Origin: Morchella semilibera
Lineage: Eukaryota > Ascomycota > Pezizomycetes > Pezizales > Morchellaceae
NCBI GenBank assembly: GCA_009192285.1
Contig: WBVU01000009.1
Location: 1,364,001-1,428,000, forward strand
Direction of reading: 5' to 3'
Length of the DNA: 64,000 bases
The notes below the pieces were generated by a model. That model was given only the letters and a program-made list of their open reading frames with translations, ran no database searches and was not told where the DNA came from. Positions 3,380 to 55,898 of the stretch are shown piece by piece. Both the position numbers and the translations under genes were made by a program. Position 1 is the first letter of the stretch, and each line of letters opens with the position of its first letter.

Positions 3380-6300
3380 TTATATATCATCCGTTTCACT
3401 TGCCTCAATAATCAACCCGACGCCAAAACCAAAACCATTCGCAAGGTCTTTCTTAATCTCTTCCCACAATCTTTTCAACAGTGCTCTTAAAAACTCAAGT
3501 GTCTGCCCTATCCCATAACCAATGACAAAATCTACCTCCTGCCCCGCAATGACTCCCTGGATACGTGCCTTTAATGGCTGCCCCTTTTCAATTATGTCCC
3601 TCAATGATCCGTGAAGCTCAATTCGCCGTATGTTGATTATTTCTTCGAGTTTTCCTACGATACTTCTCGCAAGGCTCTGGTGGTCCTCCCCTTCAATCAT
3701 TGTGACCGCCTCCTTTGCAACTTCCAGCTCTTCCGATACATTCTTAACTACTCTCAACCTCTCCGCTGCTGATTGAAACTTCTTATGTTCAGTTGATTCA
3801 GGAAGCGCTGCCTGCTTGCTCTTAAGAGCCTCAATTTTGGCTTGAGTTGTTGCTTCAAATTCTTTCAGTGTCTTTTCGGCTTTATGTATGGCTCCTTTTT
3901 GCTGTTTTACTGTGGTTTGCTCAACGATAGCCTTCTCAGATGCCTCTACCTTCTGGTCGTAAATATTCTTTTTGGCCTCCGCTTTGGTCTCAATCTGCTT
4001 GAGCGTTTCTTCTTCGATCTGCTTCGCGGACTGTAGCGCCTTGACCTTTTCGGTCTTTATGGCTATTGCAGATTGGTAATCTGAACTTTGTAGAGCTTTC
4101 CGGGCTCTCTCGAGCTTCTGGGCGGCGTATAAGAGGGTCTCTTGGCTGTCTAAGAAGTGTGCTTTTCGGTGGCCGACCTCGAGGCCCTATAAGTGGTCAA
4201 CAGTGAAACCTTAATAAAGAGCGAACAATTTACATGTCTAATTCTGCTATAGAATGGGCTCTCATCGAGTTCCTTCATCGACTCTTTAAGTTCCGCCTCA
4301 GCCACATCTAGCGCCTCTAGATTTTTATAATTCAGTTAGCTCGAAACACCCGTTAGTTTAGTGTAGATTTTACCTTGCGCTTTCTTAACCTCTGCCTCTG
4401 CACTCTCCACATCATCCAATAAAACTCCAAATTTAGATTTTGTCTCCTCCTTTGTGGCCCTGACATCAAACAGCCTGCTCCTAATGCCATCTCTAAATTC
4501 CTTCCTCGCATGCATGAAATCGATTGCAGCGCCCGCAACAAAGGCGGCCCTATCAATCCTCGCCTGTTCAAGCCGCTGATGCGCATCATAAAGAGCGGCT
4601 TCAAACTCTTTGCGTGCGTTCTCAAGGTCTTTTTGCAGCTCAAGCCTCCCCTGCTCTAGTTCGGTCAGTATCTCCTCTAATGCATCTTTTATCTGCTTCT
4701 CCTTTGTCTTCCAAGCTACTCCGGCCGCCTCAAGGGTTTGCTTAGCTCTGGTAAGCTGCGTATCCAATTTCCTCTTCTCCTCCTCAAAGAATTTCCTGGC
4801 AGCTTCAACCCCCTCCTCAAATGCTTTCTTGATCGCTTTGAAATGAGCTATAGCATGTGTGTTGACATAACTCAACACATCCTGCTCCAATACCACATCC
4901 ACTACAAAATCTGCCTGCGCTAACACACTAATATCTCCTGCTCCTAACACTCGAGCACTAATCTCCACGTCTAAAGCCTCAGCAAACGCAAAGGTAATGT
5001 CAAATCTCATATCGGGCTTAGGCAAAATATCAAATACAGACCGAACACTTGTATCTAGGTCGAGTATCTTCAATCGACCATCAACCAAGATATGTTGCTT
5101 CGCAAGCCCCAGCTCAATCGTCATTTGCGGCCTCTCATCTCCTACACCCCCCAAGAGTAGCGGTCCTAACTGCACTTCATCAAACAAGGCATTGATCTTT
5201 GTTGTTGCACCGATGGTACACTCTACAGTTGTAACCTTACCAAACATTTCCACCTCGCCCGTAATAGACGCGCCAGCGGGGTAATGCGTTTTACCGATAC
5301 TCATACCTGTCGATATATAAAACGACAAATTACGGAAAGCAAGAAGGTCCGGAGATGGAATTGGGATATCTTGACGGGATAATTTGGAGGCGAAGGTGAT
5401 TAGATCGTTTAGGCTGAGTGTACTGAGGGATGCTTTCAGCAATTGCTCCGCGGGGTTTTGGTTTATAGCCATAGCGAGTTGGAGGTTTGTAGCACCAATT
5501 GCGAGACCCCCAGAGAACATTATCTTACTATCGATAACACTTAAATCAGACATGCTCTTGCAAGATGTATCGATGTTATAGGGATTACCTTGGTGCTCCG
5601 GTGGCAGCTAGAGTAGCATATATTATTCCAATTTCGAGGGCAAGATCTGGACCAATCTTTATTCTCTCATTAAAGAGCCCTAAGGGATTGATCCAATAAT
5701 TTGTCATCTGTCCGAACCCTGACGCAGAAATTACATCGGCCTTAAGCCCAAAAGTAAAGACTAAAGGCTGCTTTTGTCCTGCTACTTTGACATTTAACGG
5801 TGCTGTAAACATTAATTGTGGAAGCTTTGATGCTACGATCTCGAGCGATATAGGACCGGATGTTACGTTTGGCCCGAGTGACAACTTGTGACATCATCAG
5901 TCAGTACTAATATTTAGTAAGTATTAATATTGGAAAGATTCTTACTGTTACTGGAGCTGGCATAAGAATTCCAAAACTAAAACCGCTGCTTGAAGAATAA
6001 GATGCTCTGAGTACCAAACCTTCAACTCTTCCTCCAGAGATCTTATTAAGTTGCTCAATAGGGCGATCGATAACCGCACAGAGCTGGACACCTGGGTATA
6101 GCATAGCATCATTAGTACCCACTACAGTAACCGTTTACAAAATTTGACCTGGATACCCTGACAAACCTTTTCTAATTGGATACCCTGAAAGATTAAAATC
6201 TCCGCTCATTGCATCCTTATTCGATGCAATCAACGCCACCCTCTTCAATCCAATATCTAAATAGGACCCCTTCACGTCCGGTTCCAGCTCCCCTAAACTA

Positions 6301-7994
6301 ATATATTTTTCTTTCTCTAACTCTCCATAAACACTCCATACTACCTCCTGCCCCTCTTCAAATTCGGTGTAAAGACCCACCGATACCATGATATCCCTTA
6401 TTTTCACCTTTCCGTTAATCTCAAAGCCGCTCTCGCGACTTGTAGTATTCGGATCAGTGCGGCCAATAAATATATCGAGGTTTGCTTGCTCAATTGTGAT
6501 CTCCCCGAGATTTATATCGAGAACACTACCAGTAATTGAAATACCGTCGCGGTGAATTGTAAGAGCTGCAGATAGTGAGGTGTGCCCATCGATTATGGTT
6601 TTTCCAGTGAAAGCGATCGCAGCAGGTGAAATCCGGAAAATGAGACTCTCAAATTGGACATCATGGTTGAAGGGATCAAGAGTTCGACCGGTTAGATCGG
6701 AGTAGAACTGACGAATAGTAGTAAGGGAGATGGTAGGAACCGCGGCTTCGAGATAGAATTCACCTATATTTAAAGTTAATTGATTAACTATTAATGTTAA
6801 AGCTACTCTAGTACGTGTCCTAAGGAACCTACCAGGTGAGTATACTCCTTTCAGATTTAAGTCAGCTCCTGGAAATTGCAATACTGCTTCGGTCTCAAAG
6901 GATAGCTCTTTAAGAGTCTCATTTACAGGAAACTTTGCTATCAGTTGTACTGAGGAAAGCTGGAACGTGTTGAAGTCAGCAAGGCACTCGTGATTACCAA
7001 CACCACTGCCAAAGAAACAGCTTACATTTAGACCCTTAAATCCTCCAACATTAATCCACCCATTCCCTTCCTTCCTCGTCAATCTCAGTATGTGGATCCC
7101 TTCCACTTCCTCTCGCAATGAATACTCCATGCCTAACGGCACTACTGACCCCGGAATTTCTAAATCTACCTTTCCAAAAAAGCCGTACCTACATCTATAT
7201 TTCGAATACTCGCTAACCTTCCCGATGTCTTTTAGTGCCGTCAGCTCAACGCCAACACTCGTAAATGTTACTAAATGTCCCAGTTTCGCCTGTACCCCCG
7301 CTAAAACTCCCTTCAACTCCATTTCCTCTGGTGATAACGGCTTGGTCCATTCTCTAGTCGTGCTGATAAACCCACCAACACTCAAGGGCACTTTCTCCTT
7401 CTTTTTAACACCAAACACACTTCGCAATGTATCATGTATGCCCTCCAAAGCGCCTTCGAATAGAATCTCAGCCTTAAAATGCATACCCGCTAACTTCTCG
7501 GTAGTATGGTCTGCATCCTTGTATATAAATTCTGGATTTATCAAGGGCACATCGCCAAATAAAGTACCACTTAGGCCCTTTAACAAATCTTTCAGAAGTA
7601 CTTTTTCACCGATAGTTACTAGCTCTCGGATTCTACCAGTGTTGGAGAGTCCGCCGACAAAGGTGTAGATCTTGGCAGGAAGCTCCATTCCGAAGAGGTT
7701 AATATCACCGCCATGGATGAAGCCCGGAGGAAGCTCTTCGTTGCTTGTATCGGTGATTTCATTTATTCTTTTCTTAGAGGGTATTGCCTTGGATTGTGTC
7801 TCCCTCAACTTTCTGGCTACGGTATTTGAATATGGGTATGTTGAGATGTTGTATTGATGAAGTCTGGCTTGTAGAGAGTCGCCATCTTTCATGTGTTCGA
7901 AGATTAATTCTTCATTTGTAAGGGGTTCTGCCCGCGAGGATTTTTGGTTGAAGCGGCCATTGAAAAGTTTGCTGGGAAGCTGTTGGGGAGCCAT
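3380..7994 (-). CDS. Large uncharacterised protein: beta-rich modules plus long helical coiled-coil tail
   Basis: Proposed exons: 7994-6833, 6763-6149, 6091-5946, 5884-5589, 5527-4374, 4316-4234 and 4186-3380 (4,263 nt, 1,420 residues). All joins keep frame, with GT..AG introns of 47-69 bp. The 6832-6764 intron is 69 bp without a stop, so it could also be read through; I spliced it because it is A/T-rich with good GTAGGT and ATAG signals. Residues ~1-100 look disordered. Residues ~100-965 are beta-rich with weakly recurring modules (a 'P.PDLL.F.N.S.YISTG...G..YPAG' segment is the clearest). Residues ~966-1370 are Lys/Glu/Ala-rich and strongly helical, with heptad-like patterning. The end is a short module starting RIELHGSLRDII. 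There is no signal peptide or clear membrane span. I cannot assign a family name; it resembles uncharacterised large proteins of other filamentous fungi from memory. Gene reality is strong, function unknown. Confidence 0.8.
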
Positions 7995-9824
7995 TTGAGA
8001 TATGGGGATAGTAGGACGGGCGGGGAAAAAGAGCCTGAAAACTCAGGTATCAGCGTAAAAGAAACAACTTAGGAGCGAAAATAATGATTATAGAGCGGAC
8101 ATCATACCGTACTTAAGGTCATCCATCTACAATTAATTACATGTATCTACGTCTGACCTCAGTCGATTACATGCTAATCCAAAGATGTATGTACATGTAC
8201 ATAGCGCAAATCTCACCCAACCCTAGTCTCGTACCCATCCCTACGAGCTGCTTGCTGCTAGCCGTAGCGATTTTGGCCCACTGACTCATTAGCATCAACC
8301 AAAGCCACCATATCGCTGGGGGGATATAAGCGCTATTTACCCATCGCGTCTACACAAATTGACTTCCGTAGACAACCCCGCGAGCCTGCTACCATTAGGA
8401 TGGCCACGCTTATAATGCCGGGGAGCCCTTGTCACTGCAAAAAGCTACTTCCTACGGCGAGATTTACTATGGAATTTTAGCTTAAATATGTACTTTGGGT
8501 GTAGGGGTAGGTGAAAAGACACCACTCTGCCAAGGGTGTCTTCTCACTTACCCCTACACCCAAAGTACATGTATAGTCCTCCGGACTCTAATCACTATTG
8601 ATGATTGAACGTACACACAGCCTACTCTATGTAGTCATACATACTCATACATCCAGGGGCATAGTTTATATAACCCGGATATTATTCTACAGGAATCCTT
8701 GCATTGGCGTTTTTAGGATTATCAAGCGCCGCCCACACACATGACACCACTATCCGATGTGAGGAAGTCCTCCTGATGACAATCACTATATACGAGAATA
8801 GAAGATTTCAGCCAGAGTAATATTAAATCTACCCCGGAAGTCTCACTGCTCTTTTCAGAATGACCGTATAGCATAGCATCACATTTACATTTAGTGGTTT
8901 AGGGGGTTAAGTCTCAAGTAGCCATAGCGAGTGATATATCATGCTTGAATATCTAGGTAAGACACAGAGTAATTCTGGGTATATAGTTATTTAAACTTCA
9001 ATACACAAACAAGCCACCAGAAAACTAGTACTAGACAGTTAACAGAATTACCTCCCTCTTCCAATTTCTCTATATACCCCTACAAACAATACCAGCCTAC
9101 GAACAAGAACAAAAGAAAAACCGAAGAGAGGGAAGAAGGGGTAACAAAAAAATGGTAGTGATAGGCCCTTAAAGACATAATGTAATAACGGATATATTGC
9201 ATTAGAAGTCATGAACCAATCTCCATTTTTGTACCTAAAGAAAAAAACAAAAGGAACCCACCCCCACCCCCCCAAACTTCCCCGTCCCACAACCGACAAA
9301 CAAGAACCCAGATCCAGCCCAGCAAGAATAGAAATGCAAAGCAAGAAAAAGTCCAACCATCCATCGACCCGTAGAAAGGAAAAGTTAACAGTAAGAAACG
9401 AGTTAATGAAAAGGACCACTAAAAGTACGTAAACACAAAAACGAAGGGAAAAACCGAAAAGAATAAAGAAAAACAAAAAGCCGTGACCGTAAGTAATCGC
9501 AAAGGGAAGAAAAGATTAACAGAAAGCCCGAAAACTCAAACAGTAACAGTGCTGGCAACCCCCCACCCCATCGAATTTAGTAGCGCAAGAAACAACCTGG
9601 TGACAGACACAAACAATAAGCCGCCCGTTCTTAATATCACTTTGCCTCACGCATTTCACGAACAACCGCCAACTAATGATAATTACCCTTGAACGTACCA
9701 AAAAGCTGAAACAGTAACGGCAAGGAAAACCATCGCGTTTCGTAACATTAACCCCCCTTCGTGATTTTCACCTACGACTCCGAACTTTATCAACTACGTA
9801 CGTTACTTGAGGACGACTACCCGT
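7995..9824. other. Intergenic region with a fold-back element and A-rich 3' flank
   Basis: Lies upstream of the large unknown gene and downstream of the Crp1-like gene. It holds the inverted repeat at 8488-8570 and two TACATGTA palindromes (8192, 8566). From about 9050 to 9770 the top strand is A/C-rich, giving long frames on both strands that are composition artefacts; this fits a long 3' untranslated region of the minus-strand Crp1-like gene. No coding exon was recognised. Confidence 0.5.
8488..8570. mobile_element. Short fold-back (MITE-like) element, copy 1
   Basis: Two arms of about 33-36 nt (8488-8523 and 8535-8570) are inverted complements with two or three mismatches, separated by an 11-nt loop. 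Arms begin with TACTTTGGGTGTAGG. A second, one-armed copy lies at 19871-19920, which shows that this is a dispersed element and not a chance hairpin. It has no coding capacity and no clear target-site duplication. Confidence 0.7.
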
Positions 9825-14352: not shown

Positions 14353-17275
14353 TCAAACTACATTAAACACTCCCGAAACGCCTTCAAACGCCGTGATTTC
14401 TCCTCCAAAAAGCGCCTTCGAGTCTCCATAGTACCTAATCCTATATTGCCCAGCCGGTGTACCCGATTCAACCGTCCACGTAATAGTTACTTGACTCTGC
14501 CCAGTCAATTCCTCTGTCCGCTTCCACTCGTAGACCAAGTTCCAGTCAGTATCATCCCTAACCCTAGCCCACGTCCCCGACCCGTTTTTCTCAACCGCCG
14601 CAAATGTCCCTTCCAGTCTCAAGTTATTTCTCGGGTTCGCCCCGACAAAGACGACCTTTACCATGTCGCCGATCTTGTACGGACCTATAACGTCTGTCAG
14701 GACACTCCCGAAGCTCTTTCCTAGTGGCGGGTTATCTTGCACCACGCCAGTGATAAGCGAGATCGAATTATTGGTGTTGATCGGCGGTTTAGTGCCCGTG
14801 GGCATGGGAGTTGACGGAACTTTCGCGGCGAGGTACGGTGTGTAGGTCTTGTATAGAGATATGTACGCATCCAAGCTATTCCATTTAACGCGGTTGAAGC
14901 AGAAATGCCCCCCTCCAAAGTTAGCAACCGGAAGCTCAAGCGCCAAGAAGAACAGATTGAAGAAGTCAACGAAGGATCCTCAAAAAAATCAAAGACATAC
15001 AACCCACACAGTCGGGCGAGTTTTGAATTGAGTTCGTAGGGGGGGTTTCAAAGGCAAAAAAATACAGGTACCGGAAAAAAAAAGAGGATGGTTTTTAAGA
15101 CACGTACGTAAATTGCCCATAAAGTGTGCTGGCACCTTCGTATCTCTGTATGGCATACTCTTCAGGAGTTGCGATGTAGTGCGTGTACGAATTGGCTGGC
15201 CCCCCGATAACCGTCCATCCGGACTCTTTACTAATTATTCCCAGCTTGTCGAGTTCATCAGCTATCGCGGCTTTCCAGCGACGTCCCGCCATTGTCGTGG
15301 CTTCTCCAGGTGCCACGATGATGGTGAGCTGCCCTACGCGGAGCATTTGAATATCGACGATATTTGGTGTCCTAACGGATTCATTGCCTGAGCATTAGCT
15401 TCCGATGTTCTGCATGGAAGCTCAGGTAAGGAAGAATAATAGAATTTTATCATATCTTCTTTCTCCCTTCTCACCAAGATCTTATGTCATTTGATTCTGT
15501 GGTAATCGAAGAGGAAGTACGGTAGACACGATGCGAATCTTAAACTCCCTCCAGGGGCTCTGTACCTACCCATCGAGAAAGAACGCAAAAAAGAAACGGA
15601 CAGTAAAGGGAGCTACGACATACCAAGCATAGGGCTGATCCATTTCACCCACATTCAGCAGAATTGGCTTCGGAGCATGACAATCTTTTTGCTCCTTACT
15701 TGGAGCCTTCAACAAATCCCTAACAAGTAGCCAAAATGGGTTACTAGGCGCGCCTGGATCGTTCTGCGTGAAATCTGCGAAACCCGGCCAATCCGTTGTG
15801 CCAGCTGCGAAGCTGAACCCTAACGCAGCCTTGCATGTTTTCCACATGGATCCGTTCGAGAGCTTAAACTCGTGCCCTGCTCCGAAGTCGACAAACGTGT
15901 GTAGACTGCGCACGATCCCACCATCGCCAGACACGGGTGTCTGCGCTGCGCTAGTATCGCTACTACTACCGTTACCGTTACCGCTACCATTACTACCGCT
16001 GCTGTAGATCTGCTTCGCTCCCAAATACTGTAACTGCCCGATAATGCGGCAAGATTCCGTGTCGGAGATCTGGAACGCTGGGCCACGACCTCGACATTGT
16101 TGAGAGACCCCGTTGCATGTTGAGTCCTCGTATCTACATTCTAGTCCGGTATCCTGGCAGACTGGGCCGAGAGTGTTCGGAGATGTGTCGCCGACGTTAG
16201 CTTGAGAGAATCCAGCCACGAAGCCATTTCCGAGATCCTTTTCGAGTTGAAGAGCGGCATATCCTTTGTTGTCTCCAGCGATAAGTGTATTATTACCATA
16301 GAGAGAGGTCCCATGGACTGGGAACCAATTGAGGAGACTATAATGTTTTTTGGAGTCAGTGATAAAATGTTTGTGTGATAAATCATCATATGGGGCGAAA
16401 TATTCAAGGAACACAGACCCAAGAGGCGTGCCATCTTCTTTCTTAAAAGAAAGAACCGTCATCTCCTTATCTACATCCCCACCCACATCTTCATACTTTG
16501 CTCTCTCCTCTGCTGAGTTTGCCTCATAAGCATAAGGGCTGCGATTGACGTTTGCGTCATTGACTAGTCCCTTAGCAAGAGATAGATAGCCCGGTGTGAG
16601 GGATGTATGAGCCCGCTTAATAGAGAGGACGATACCCTCAACGATAGCGGTGTACGACTGCGAATCAAACCCCTGCGTCGTTATCTGGGGTAGTAGATAA
16701 TTGAGCCATGCACCTAAGTTGATCCGAATAAGCTCTCAGGCACCGTAAAATAAACTTTGACCCCCTCCTGAAAAAATCAATCCCACTTAAGATTCCCAAC
16801 AACCCAACAACAGCCCCAAATTCCAATTCAAAATCCCAGGGTAAAAAATAAAATATCACTCCAGAGTGTCCAAGATGAGATATTGGTACTTACCAGGTCC
16901 AGCATGACTGTGCGTCCCCACCACCGCCACATTCCCCTGTCCATAAACGCCAGGAAAAGCCTTCTCCAGTCCCTTTAAAACGCCATCCCTTATCGCAGTA
17001 TCACCACTCTGCACGTCCACGCTCACATACACAAATCTATCCCCTGGATTATTCACATCTGCAACTATAAATGCTCTAGAATGTATTCGCTGTCGAAGTC
17101 CTGTTCCTTTCTGCGCGAGGTCAGCATACCCCATCATTCCGATCTCAACGACAGGGCCGGTGACGTCGGCACGACCGACGCCGAGAAGGTATTTGTCCCC
17201 CACAGATTCATCTTGGGAAAGGGCCTGAGGGAATAGGAGGCATAGTAGGGGCAAGATGTGATATATGAAGCGCAT
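14353..17275 (-). CDS. Neutral (alkaline) ceramidase, secreted
   Basis: Exons 17275-16894, 16713-15624, 15371-15108 and 14875-14353 join in frame to 752 residues, normal for the family. The enzyme hydrolyses ceramide to sphingosine and fatty acid. A signal peptide (MRFIYHILPLLCLLFPQALSQ up to about residue 21) points to secretion or the endomembrane lumen. Family signatures: GVGRADVTGP at the mature N-terminus, the zinc-site THSHAGPG, GDNKGYA, and NVGDTSPN with the nucleophile Ser at about residue 305. GASTLYGQFTLDAY and a C-terminal beta-sandwich ending GVFNVV close the protein. A Gly/Ser/Asn-rich insertion (SSGSNGSGNGNGSSS) follows the catalytic half. Introns are 180, 252 and 232 bp, longer than in most genes here. 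Splice points are inferred; the family is certain. Confidence 0.95.
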
Positions 17276-18569
17276 CTTAGAGCTGGCTACTGATAACGGC
17301 GATTTTCTTGGGGGTGTGTTTGAGGTTTTAGGTAGTCCTAGCTGGAGCTACTTAAGATAAAGTGTAATTACACGTGCGCAGTTAGAAGGAGGCGTAATAT
17401 TGTAAAGCTCGATATTTGGTGTTACTCGCCCGTAGGTGGAATAAACACAAGGCCTTCCCCAGGCAGATGCTAGTTGAGATCCGGGGGTCCTGGTATTGTC
17501 CAAGCTTCAATTAAACTATGTAAACGTAAATAAACAAAATCACCACGATCTTGGTAGAGCAAAGCCCCACATACCCTCAAAGCTCCCCCCAAACCCCTCT
17601 TTCGGATTACCCCTCCCCACAATATCAATACTAAAAAATCAAGCTAGCTATGCACTTTTCTACTCTAGAGTAGATAATATATTGTCAGTATTGATGAAAG
17701 TCGCAATATCAGATTCTTTAATCTGTAGATACACACATGCAAGAGGAGGTCGTGATGCGTAGTGGGGCTTATTGCCAAGTCTCAGGGATCTTGGTCGATC
17801 ATTGGCCTGGGCGTGACACAAACAACGGAGGGTTGGGCGGAAAAAGAAGGTGGTATTGTCGGTGAGCCGTGGTAAGCGTGTGTTCGGGAGTTGTTTGTAG
17901 AAGTTTTGGGTGTAATCTTGAGGTGTGTTAATCTAGAGCATGTGGTACAGGGCAGTTTCTTATTGTAATGCACCTTATCACTAATACATGTAGCTATAGC
18001 TGCATGTAACCATAACTGTAGCTTTACGAAGTTCATGGGATTACTCCCGTGTATTCCCTTCCCGTAAGTACAACCAATTGGCCAACCTACATGTAGCCGT
18101 AGAATAGCCCGACACCCACACAAGTGGTGCATACACCTGGGGTAGATATACTCTAGCAGCATACATAGTCGCACTCGATATGCCGGAAGTCAGTACCCCG
18201 GATCCATTGCTATCCCGCACGGGGTCCTCTGTTCTTTTCATGCAGCAATTTGCTATATACCCCGGGTGATCTGCTGTCCTGTATGAAATTATTCGAATCT
18301 TGGCAATCCGGAATATCGAGATGTATTGACCATATGCACATCATGTACCTACTAAAGTACTGGTACATGCAGCGGGTATATTAAGTCACTACATGTAGTT
18401 TTAAACCTCCTCTCGGTGTTCGTTCTGCCGTGCCAATTAACTATTCTAATAAAACATGCACATAGTCGTGATTAAAACTCGAAACTGCATTTGGTTATCT
18501 GTAGGTAAACGGTGCCGAGGAAGCAATGAGTTCTCGTCTAGTATCCCGGTGCACTAATCAAGGCAAACA

Positions 18570-53491: not shown

Positions 53492-53855
53492 TTGTGTGAT
53501 AAATAATAATAATAATATATATATATATAAAGTATTGCAATTTAATAGATCTACGTACAGCAGCACCAGTAGGAATGCGGCGAGGGACTTGTCGTCATAA
53601 ATAAGCTTGTTTGCAAGGAAAAAGCATGTGAGGCAGGGTTAGGGTTCTGAGGAGGGTGGGGGTGAATGTTTCAGCTTCAATTGGGCTGTGAATGTTTTCT
53701 GTGCAGCTCTCCTCCCCTCAGGCCCGTATACAATTTACAATACAGACATACCAGCACCAGTACAAATACAAATACAAATACAAACACAAACACAAATACA
53801 AATACAAATACAAATACCCACCGATACCCACGGCCGACGGATCGAGAATCGAAGC
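53492..53855. promoter_or_regulatory. Divergent promoter region with ACAAAT microsatellite
   Basis: The 364-bp stretch separates two divergent start codons, so it must contain both promoters. It holds an AT microsatellite (53511-53528) next to the minus-strand start. Next to the plus-strand start is a run of about ten ACAAAT/ACAAAC units (53753-53817) that probably lies in the 5' leader. Confidence 0.55.
53753..53817. repeat. (ACAAAT)n hexanucleotide repeat
   Basis: About ten six-base units, some with C instead of T at the last position. The frame stays open upstream through it, but the repeat translation (IQIQTQTQ) and the ATG downstream at 53856 suggest that it is leader, not coding. Confidence 0.85.
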
Positions 53856-54731
53856 ATGGAGGACCTGCTCGCCCGCCACCGCAAAGAGCTCCGCGACCTG
53901 ACATCGCGCATCACGCAGAAGAAGAAGGCGGCCACAAAGAAGACGCGCAAGGGCATCAACTCCGAGTGCGAAGCTCTCGAGCGCGATCTCAAGGAGCGCC
54001 ACAGGCAAGAGATTGCGGAGCTCGAGAACCCCGGGGGTGCCGGTAACGACGACGACGACGAGGCAGAAGCAGAAGCCGAAGCAGAGGAAGCACCAGCACC
54101 CACCGAGCCAGAGACTCCAGAGCTACCATCCAAGGAAGCAGCAGCCCCCACCCCCGACGACGCACCACCCACCCCCACACACACCAAGAAGCCCAACCGC
54201 CGCAAAGCCCAACTCGCCCGCCGCGCCGCAGCCCTCGAAGCCGCCGCAGACGAAGCGGCAGCCACGGCCGCCACGCAGCCGGACCTGCGCAGCCTCGAGC
54301 GCTCCCAGATGGCCGCGCACCTGCAGGCGCTCTCGCTGACGGAGCGCGAGATCGCGCCCGACGGGCACTGCCTCTACAGCGCGTTTGCCGACCAGGTGGC
54401 TGCCGCGGGCGACTACCGGCGTGCCCGGCGGCGCTGCGCAGAGTTCATGCTTGCCCATCGCGACCAGTTTGCTCCTTTCCTTGAGGGAGACTTTGACGAC
54501 CATGTGCGCAGGGTTGCGGAGACGGCCGAGTGGGGGGGTCAGGCGGAGGTGCTGGCGCTGGCGAGGGCGTTCGGCGTGGTCGTCAATGTGGTGCAGGCGC
54601 AGGGGCGCGGGGTCGAGAGGATGAATGAGGGGGCCGAGGGCGGGGAGGTCTGGTTGGGCTATTATAGGCATAGCTTTGGCCTCGGGGAGCATTATAATTC
54701 GCTCAGGAAGGAGAAGGAGGGTGGGAGTTAG
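53856..54731 (+). CDS. OTU-family deubiquitinase, OTUD6/Otu2-like
   Basis: Single exon, 291 residues from ATG 53856. An in-frame start further upstream (53688) would add 56 residues mostly coded by the ACAAAT repeat, so it is less likely. The N-terminal half is a charged coiled coil (MEDLLARHRKELRDLTSRI, EALERDLKERHRQEIAELE), an acidic block and a Lys-rich helix, as in OTUD6B and yeast Otu2. The OTU protease domain begins near residue 155, with the catalytic Asp and Cys in APDGHCLYSAFADQ and the catalytic His in LGEHYNSL. The internal EWGGQAEVLALARAF motif is conserved in the family. Relatives act on ribosome-associated ubiquitin. The coding region is very G/C-rich. Intact. Confidence 0.95.
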   Translation: MEDLLARHRKELRDLTSRITQKKKAATKKTRKGINSECEALERDLKERHRQEIAELENPGGAGNDDDDEAEAEAEAEEAPAPTEPETPELPSKEAAAPTPDDAPPTPTHTKKPNRRKAQLARRAAALEAAADEAAATAATQPDLRSLERSQMAAHLQALSLTEREIAPDGHCLYSAFADQVAAAGDYRRARRRCAEFMLAHRDQFAPFLEGDFDDHVRRVAETAEWGGQAEVLALARAFGVVVNVVQAQGRGVERMNEGAEGGEVWLGYYRHSFGLGEHYNSLRKEKEGGS

Positions 54732-55098
54732 GGTGCGGGGGGGACTTTTGTAGACAGTAGATAGATGTATATAGATATTAATGGATTCGAACGATGACTA
54801 GGGCGCTTTGTATTTAATAGAGGGATGGAGTTGATCATTGACATTGGATGGAATATTAACAAGTAAAGGCAATTGGTTGAGCACAAACGTGATTTATAGC
54901 GCAAGTAAAAAGATAAAAGCACAAAAGTGATCATTGACCGCACACATATCTAACAAGCAAAAAGAATAAAAGACGACCCGATCATTGACACCTCCACTCC
55001 ATATAAATACTTGTTTGTAGCTACAAAACCCGTCCAGAAACCCTCACCACCAGCCACCCCCTCCCTCTCCCCATGATCCCCCCCACACACACCACCCC
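54732..55098. other. Convergent spacer
   Basis: A 367-bp stretch between the stops of the OTU gene (+) and the hydroxyisourate hydrolase gene (-); A/T-rich, no gene seen. It should contain both poly(A) regions. Confidence 0.55.
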
Positions 55099-55587
55099 CT
55101 ATGACCCCCGATAAGTCGTATAACTATACGGCGCCAGCAGCAATGGTATATGATAATGCTGCCCCGCATCCTTAACCGTAAACACCACCTCGACATACGG
55201 AAAGAACGTCTCCCCGCCAAAATACGCCCACGTCTCGAAGCGAATCTTATACGTGAAGCCCTCCTCGACATCGAGCCTCGCAGCGGCGCCCTTCTGCCTC
55301 GTCTCCCACTGCGCCACGCGCCCGTCCTCGTTTGTGACGGCGCGCGCAACCTCAAACGACGACGACGAGGGCGTGCCGTCGTCCAGCTTCATGAAGCGGC
55401 TGAGCGTGCAGGGGATGCCGGCCGCGGGCTTGCCCGTGGCCGTGTTCAGGACGTGACAGGTGACGGCGGGTTTGGCGGGGGTGCTCATGATGTGGCCGCT
55501 GAGGGTTGCGAGACGGGTGGTGGCCGTGGAACTTGTGCTGGTGCTGGTTGTTTGTGTGGATTGTGGGTTTTGGGGAGGAGGGGGCAT
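55099..55587 (-). CDS. 5-hydroxyisourate hydrolase (transthyretin-like) with probable PTS2
   Basis: Single exon, 162 residues from the first ATG. The enzyme hydrolyses 5-hydroxyisourate, the product of urate oxidase, in purine degradation. The domain starts at VTCHVLNTATGKPAAGIPC with the catalytic His. DGRV and the C-terminal QHYHIPLLLAPYSYTTYRGS, the hallmark of the family, complete the active site. Upstream of the internal Met (MSTPAKPAV) the N-terminal extension contains RLATLSGHI, which fits the peroxisomal PTS2 pattern R-L-x5-H-hydrophobic. This favours the longer start and a peroxisomal location, as for zebrafish and other HIU hydrolases. The Ser/Thr-rich stretch before it is unusual. 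A downstream initiation would give a cytosolic form. Intact. Confidence 0.94.
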   Translation of the reverse strand: MPPPPQNPQSTQTTSTSTSSTATTRLATLSGHIMSTPAKPAVTCHVLNTATGKPAAGIPCTLSRFMKLDDGTPSSSSFEVARAVTNEDGRVAQWETRQKGAAARLDVEEGFTYKIRFETWAYFGGETFFPYVEVVFTVKDAGQHYHIPLLLAPYSYTTYRGS

Positions 55588-55898
55588 GGTGAGGAGGAGG
55601 GCGGAGTGGTAGGGGGGGAGGGGGGATGTGGGGGGTTTATATACAGAAGTGTATCTACATAAGAATACTTGATATGATACTCCTCACGGCCGGCGGCTGC
55701 CGAAGTCGACGTTCTCCCCCGGACCGGACCCTTCCTTACGTATCGGCACCGGCCACAACACGGGCACGGGACCCCGGAACCCCCAACAAGTCTACAATCC
55801 TTCTCGAGTACGTCATCGAGTGAGCCCCGATGCAGCACACTTACGGTAACCAATTAGATACTCGGATTATAAAGCTAAACCAGCCGCCTGTTCTCCAT
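55588..55898. other. Spacer between HIU hydrolase start and tRNA-Ser copy 3
   Basis: The 311-bp stretch carries G-rich promoter-side sequence (55600-55640) for the minus-strand gene. No open frame of note. Confidence 0.5.

Follow-up and report, generated by a model that had tools for sequence, protein, structure and literature searches.

The question raised by this locus is what kind of protein is encoded by a long spliced gene on the minus strand at positions 3380–7994 of the window, by which we mean the whole 64,000-nucleotide stretch of Morchella semilibera DNA analysed here, and whether that protein belongs to a known family. The gene lies in the middle of its contig, at about 1.37 of the 2.45 Mb of C23, and consists of seven exons that run from an ATG at 7994 to a stop codon ending at 3380. 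Exon 1 (6833–7994) encodes a leader of residues 1–87 and the beginning of a beta body, and exon 2 (6149–6763; residues about 388–592) carries the bulk of the first copy of a duplicated module (residues 369–521, starting in exon 1). The beta body continues through exon 3 (5946–6091; residues about 593–641) and exon 4 (5589–5884; residues about 642–739) into exon 5 (4374–5539), which contains the second module copy (residues 749–910), the end of the body and the first half of a helical tail. Exon 6 (4234–4316), of only 83 nt, belongs to the tail, and exon 7 (3380–4186) encodes the second half of the tail, a terminal module (residues about 1336–1424) and the stop. The joined exons comprise 4,275 nt with no internal stop and encode 1,424 residues, so that the length of 1,420 residues given in the preliminary description was close but slightly short.

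All six introns are of the GT-AG type, with lengths of 69, 57, 61, 49, 57, and 47 nt. Intron 1 (6764–6832) is stop-free and its 69 nt are divisible by three, and an ORF finder therefore passes through it. The donor of intron 2, GTCAAA, is weak, and the intron contains a branch-site-like stretch, TACTAAT. The longest open frame between 3380 and 8000 spans 621 codons, compared with a maximum of 349 (mean, 126) in 200 base-shuffled copies. This length, together with the introns shared with a relative described below, ruled out a chance ORF, and the intact frame across the seven exons ruled out a pseudogene. A viral or phage origin is unlikely, given six introns, no confident PHROGs family and, for the part compared with phages, no match.

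The genome (56.76 Mb, 23 contigs) was searched with the full protein at E values up to 0.1. Besides the gene itself, ordered pieces of a full-length relative were found at the ends of contigs C12 (1567301–1571749) and C13 (1566143–1570591), and no third kind of locus was detected. A homology-guided model of the relative (L018), with a start chosen by us, has nine exons and encodes 1,513 residues; it differs from the window protein in a longer and different N-terminal part, which depends on the chosen start, and in having eight introns instead of six. The two proteins share 24.9% identity across residues 92–1404 (pairwise E 7e-112). Body, tail, and terminal module occur in the same order in both and align separately, with E values of 1e-83, 1e-10, and 9e-11, respectively, while the N-terminal 87 residues gave no alignment and have no counterpart in the relative. 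In shuffle controls, which covered the body and tail alignments and not that of the terminal module, the body scored 274 bits, compared with 25.8 for the best of 30 shuffles, and the tail 48.5 bits, compared with 23.1.

Four of the six introns, after residues 387, 641, 1128, and 1156, have a counterpart in the relative with the same phase and at most one alignment column away, the one after residue 387 lying one column away. Exon 6 is thus flanked by shared introns on both sides, whereas exon 3 shares its 3' but not its 5' intron. The introns after residues 592 and 739 are unmatched, the nearest one in the relative lying eight columns from the latter, at the 3' end of exon 4. Four coincidences were reached by none of 100,000 random placements, although the agreement is partly guided, since the splice sites of the relative were chosen in knowledge of the query; even so, every place had to offer a usable GT and AG. 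The matching positions and phases support the splice model, and a full-length relative sharing four introns indicates that the gene is more than chance. These data bore out the earlier claim of a real gene with seven cleanly joining exons, while its description as conserved-looking holds in that a relative exists, but one known inside the same genome only. Judged from sequence, this is a genuine protein family, and one that none of the libraries searched here names.

The position of the relative bears on what sort of family this may be. Its gene stops 4,879 bp short of a telomere-like end of the contig, at the same distance on C12 and C13, and an ORF for a DDE transposase lies 8–9 kb from it on the side away from that end. 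This setting, together with an identity of just 25% between the two proteins, would suit a fast-evolving accessory family, for example one involved in allorecognition or defence, with one member near a telomere. We consider this explanation unlikely, because the window gene lies in the middle of its contig, no effector or signalling domain was matched, and, with only two kinds of locus found (E up to 0.1), no expansion is seen. The locus of the relative is identical on C12 and C13 across the 9,842 bases compared, and the two contigs are of near-equal length (1,576,628 and 1,575,470). Given also the equal distance to the end, the two contigs may represent a single chromosome that was assembled twice, a pair of homologues, or contigs with a common subtelomere. 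Open frames upstream of the relative (L018 568–2340; 373 and 115 residues, and shorter ones) may extend its N-terminus; the longest of them had no convincing Pfam match.

The beta-rich character assigned earlier to the N-terminal part of the protein was examined by hydrophobic-moment analysis, with region borders chosen by us. In the body (residues 88–965), the moment at the strand angle stood well above shuffles in the window protein (z 6.3) and in the relative (z 7.3), whereas the moment at the helix angle did not (z -0.8 and -1.5, respectively). About 880 residues thus carry a beta-strand hydrophobic pattern, in agreement with the earlier assignment. A motif of the form hydrophobic-x-hydrophobic-(x)-G-x-hydrophobic occurred 23 times, compared with 10.5 on average in shuffles (sd 3.1), and 17 times in the relative, against 8.7 (sd 2.9); this motif was picked after reading the sequence, and the maxima of 1000 shuffles (24 and 19, respectively) exceeded the observed counts.

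Recurring modules, as had been proposed for this part, were sought by hhalign among 66 pairs of body segments. The best pair, residues about 418–521 with about 799–907, scored 33.1 (P 7e-5 for one comparison), while 60 shuffled comparisons peaked at 20.5. With larger segments, residues 369–521 and 749–910 scored 38.4, compared with a maximum of 23.4 over 40 shuffles, although the hhalign probability, obtained from two-sequence alignments, was just 59%. The duplicated module measures about 150–160 residues. Residues 88–340 were not matched to either of the two later module regions (hhalign P 0.19 and 0.13), and neither they nor the terminal module matched any other region tried by hhalign. The proposal of recurring modules therefore stands for this one pair, but no other repeat is statistically supported. 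A BLASTP self-comparison of residues 1–960 detected no repeat, suggesting that the internal duplication is old.

A duplicated module of this size within a long beta body is also what might be expected if the body formed a lipid-transfer groove of the bridge-like kind, be it of the repeating-beta-groove (RBG; VPS13/ATG2) or AsmA/TamB type, which the tail would place on membranes. According to PMC7613979, an RBG domain comprises five strands and a loop, and such grooves can lose detectable homology while keeping secondary structure and lipid transfer. Neither a chorein domain nor a related Pfam family was matched in the scan of the full protein, and we regard a lipid-transfer groove as a rather remote prospect. 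The body may hold lipid, a reading that the absent chorein match makes less likely.

Residues 966–1335 show the opposite pattern to the body, with a helix-angle z of 4.4 (relative, 4.9) and a strand-angle z of 0.7 (relative, 0.8). The residues K, E, A, R, and Q make up 54% of this tail (47% in the relative), and P and G together 4%. A helical tail rich in K, E, and A had been described before and was found in both proteins, but its length, put at about 450 residues, was measured as about 370. Among nine periods tried, the strongest hydrophobic period was 3.6 in both proteins, while the period of 3.5 expected of a canonical coiled coil was weak. This speaks for amphipathic helices or a bundle rather than a long canonical coiled coil, and a folded bundle or helices lying on a surface seem just as likely as a coil shaped like a rod. 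The hydrophobic autocorrelation had weak peaks at 7, 14, and 18. The short terminal module reported at the end of the protein was likewise recovered, at residues about 1336–1424, with a helix z of 2.6 (relative, 1.4); it is kept in the relative, as its separate alignment showed.

Structure prediction by AlphaFold from single sequences gave models with a mean pLDDT of 42.6 for exon 5 alone and of 29.3 for the stretch of exons 1–2, the latter with an input of 528 residues, 23 of which are read-through of intron 1. In the exon 5 model, three separate long helices were placed at about residues 960–1127 (block pLDDT 46–74), and helices also appeared in part of the presumed beta region, with pLDDT under 50. 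Apart from the three helices, the two models were too poor to be informative, and they do not bear on the earlier guess of a filamentous or lipid-surface scaffold, which may or may not hold. No transmembrane-like segment was detected, the highest 19-residue Kyte-Doolittle mean being 1.45, and no signal sequence was seen by eye. Cysteines number only 5 in 1,424 residues. Searches of Pfam and NCBIfam matched no enzyme family, in line with the lack of a membrane span, targeting signal, or enzyme motif noted at the outset. It is only because neither a signal nor a membrane span is evident that we infer an intracellular location.

No convincing match for the protein was obtained in Pfam, NCBIfam, PHROGs, or PDB sequences. 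The weak Pfam matches were SfsA_N (E 0.11–0.22) and, on the exon 5 frame in the helical part, DUF4455 (E 0.0032); the best PHROGs and NCBIfam matches had values of 0.026 and 0.15, respectively, and these weak family matches fell below the curated cut-off wherever one was shown. Against PDB chains, the best phmmer E value was 0.19 (residues 1–1001 only), a profile of the two proteins reached 0.21 at best, and the module profile 0.33; profile hits of the tail had E values of 0.2 or worse, and the query A3 gave no hit. The designation of the protein as one of unrecognised family was accordingly retained, for its modules as well.

Fungi hold large families of proteins built in this style of beta repeats, and DUF6603 or the like comprises big bacterial and fungal proteins with beta repeats. 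A missed assignment is therefore a serious possibility, in which the protein would be a divergent member of such a catalogued family. Strands with glycine turns, a long repetitive beta body, and the lack of an enzyme domain all fit that style, but no Pfam match was found at E values up to 10 with the full protein, the pieces of the relative, or the modules. In particular, hmmscan gave no match to DUF6603 (PF20248) at that threshold for the full protein or, in both proteins, for their regions and modules. PF20248 also had no hits when run against this genome, which says little, since none of 14 control genomes gave a match either. On balance, we hold membership in a catalogued family to be possible, though doubtful.

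Collections of bacteria, archaea, viruses, and plasmids were also scanned, the contig collections with two short peptide patterns each. No relatives were found among 202 and 47 pattern stretches in GTDB contigs or among 259, 56, and 42 in IMG/VR, nor among plasmids (queried with residues 1–983 and with 850 residues of the relative) or phages (queried with 229 residues, about 740–968). With such collections and short patterns, these results say nothing about distribution in fungi. A topic-based literature search did not name the protein, which does not mean that it has never been published; no papers on DUF6603 were found.

The gene lies tail to tail with the 3' part of a VIT-vWA gene on the plus strand (3–2435), 944 bp away. 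A VWA domain (VWA_3, E 1.6e-23) was matched within the window and a VIT domain (E 4.7e-33) immediately before it, confirming the convergent VIT-vWA gene that had been proposed; it also contains a glutamine-rich stretch of CAG/CAA repeats at 1741–1880. VIT-vWA proteins are known in fungi (PMC10539598). The adjoining position might suggest that the two gene products are functional partners, but the genome search for VIT gave a single hit, which lies here, and none beside the relative. The pairing is thus not recurrent, and the adjacency looks incidental. Moreover, gene adjacency in fungi is weak evidence, and convergent genes have no common promoter. We therefore think a functional partnership very improbable, and the idea of an undescribed system found no support here, as no recurring partner was found.

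Several other features were observed in the window and the genome. Upstream of the seven-exon gene, at 8483–8575, there is an inverted repeat with 41-nt arms that are 90% complementary and 11 nt apart, which resembles a small palindromic mobile element. The minus strand of 15566–17347 carries a neutral ceramidase gene, matched at 15569–16735 by Ceramidase_alk (E 2.6e-111), and an ORF at 16856–17347 looks by eye like its 5' part. At 53643–55683, an ORF for an OTU-type cysteine protease (E 8e-20) adjoins one of the transthyretin/HIUase family (E 7e-33). At least two HET-domain matches were found in the 56.8 Mb genome, on C3 and C19; two are few for a filamentous ascomycete.

The long beta body, the amphipathic tail, the small number of cysteines, and the lack of a recognised catalytic domain led us to consider a structural, tethering, or ligand-holding role. 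We tentatively favour a soluble, intracellular, modular scaffold-like protein, a self-associating beta-rod with a helical tail, to which we would give somewhat less than an even chance. In such a protein, the beta modules would stack one after another to form an elongated rod or sheet, and a protein or lipid ligand could be held on its surface or in its groove; the tail would drive self-association as a coiled coil or folded bundle, and the terminal module would cap it. Overall, the product would be a multivalent structural or tethering protein and not an enzyme. It is improbable, though worth stating, that the family combines an undescribed beta-repeat fold with a self-associating helical tail, possibly as a new intracellular lipid- or protein-binding rod that underwent an old duplication in this genome. 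The interest of the locus is that its family is spliced and full-length, keeps to one three-part architecture and is named in none of the profile libraries searched. Should the fold prove new, or turn out to be a lipid-transfer groove that had gone unrecognised, fungi would gain a class of structural protein; in any case, the gene model together with the relative gives a firm footing for a fungal alignment and a usable structure prediction.

Among known systems, the repeating-beta-groove proteins VPS13 and ATG2 resemble the window protein in their long beta body, repeated modules, and helical accessory parts, but the window protein has no chorein or other Pfam match and no sequence link to them. 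The likeness to large beta proteins of the DUF6603 type lies in the general style of the beta repeats, and a Pfam match is absent. Unlike group 3 LEA and long coiled-coil proteins, the window protein is mostly non-helical, and the PDB profile hits of its tail are weak; what it has in common with them is the tail itself, with its 54% of K, E, A, R, and Q and 4% of P and G.
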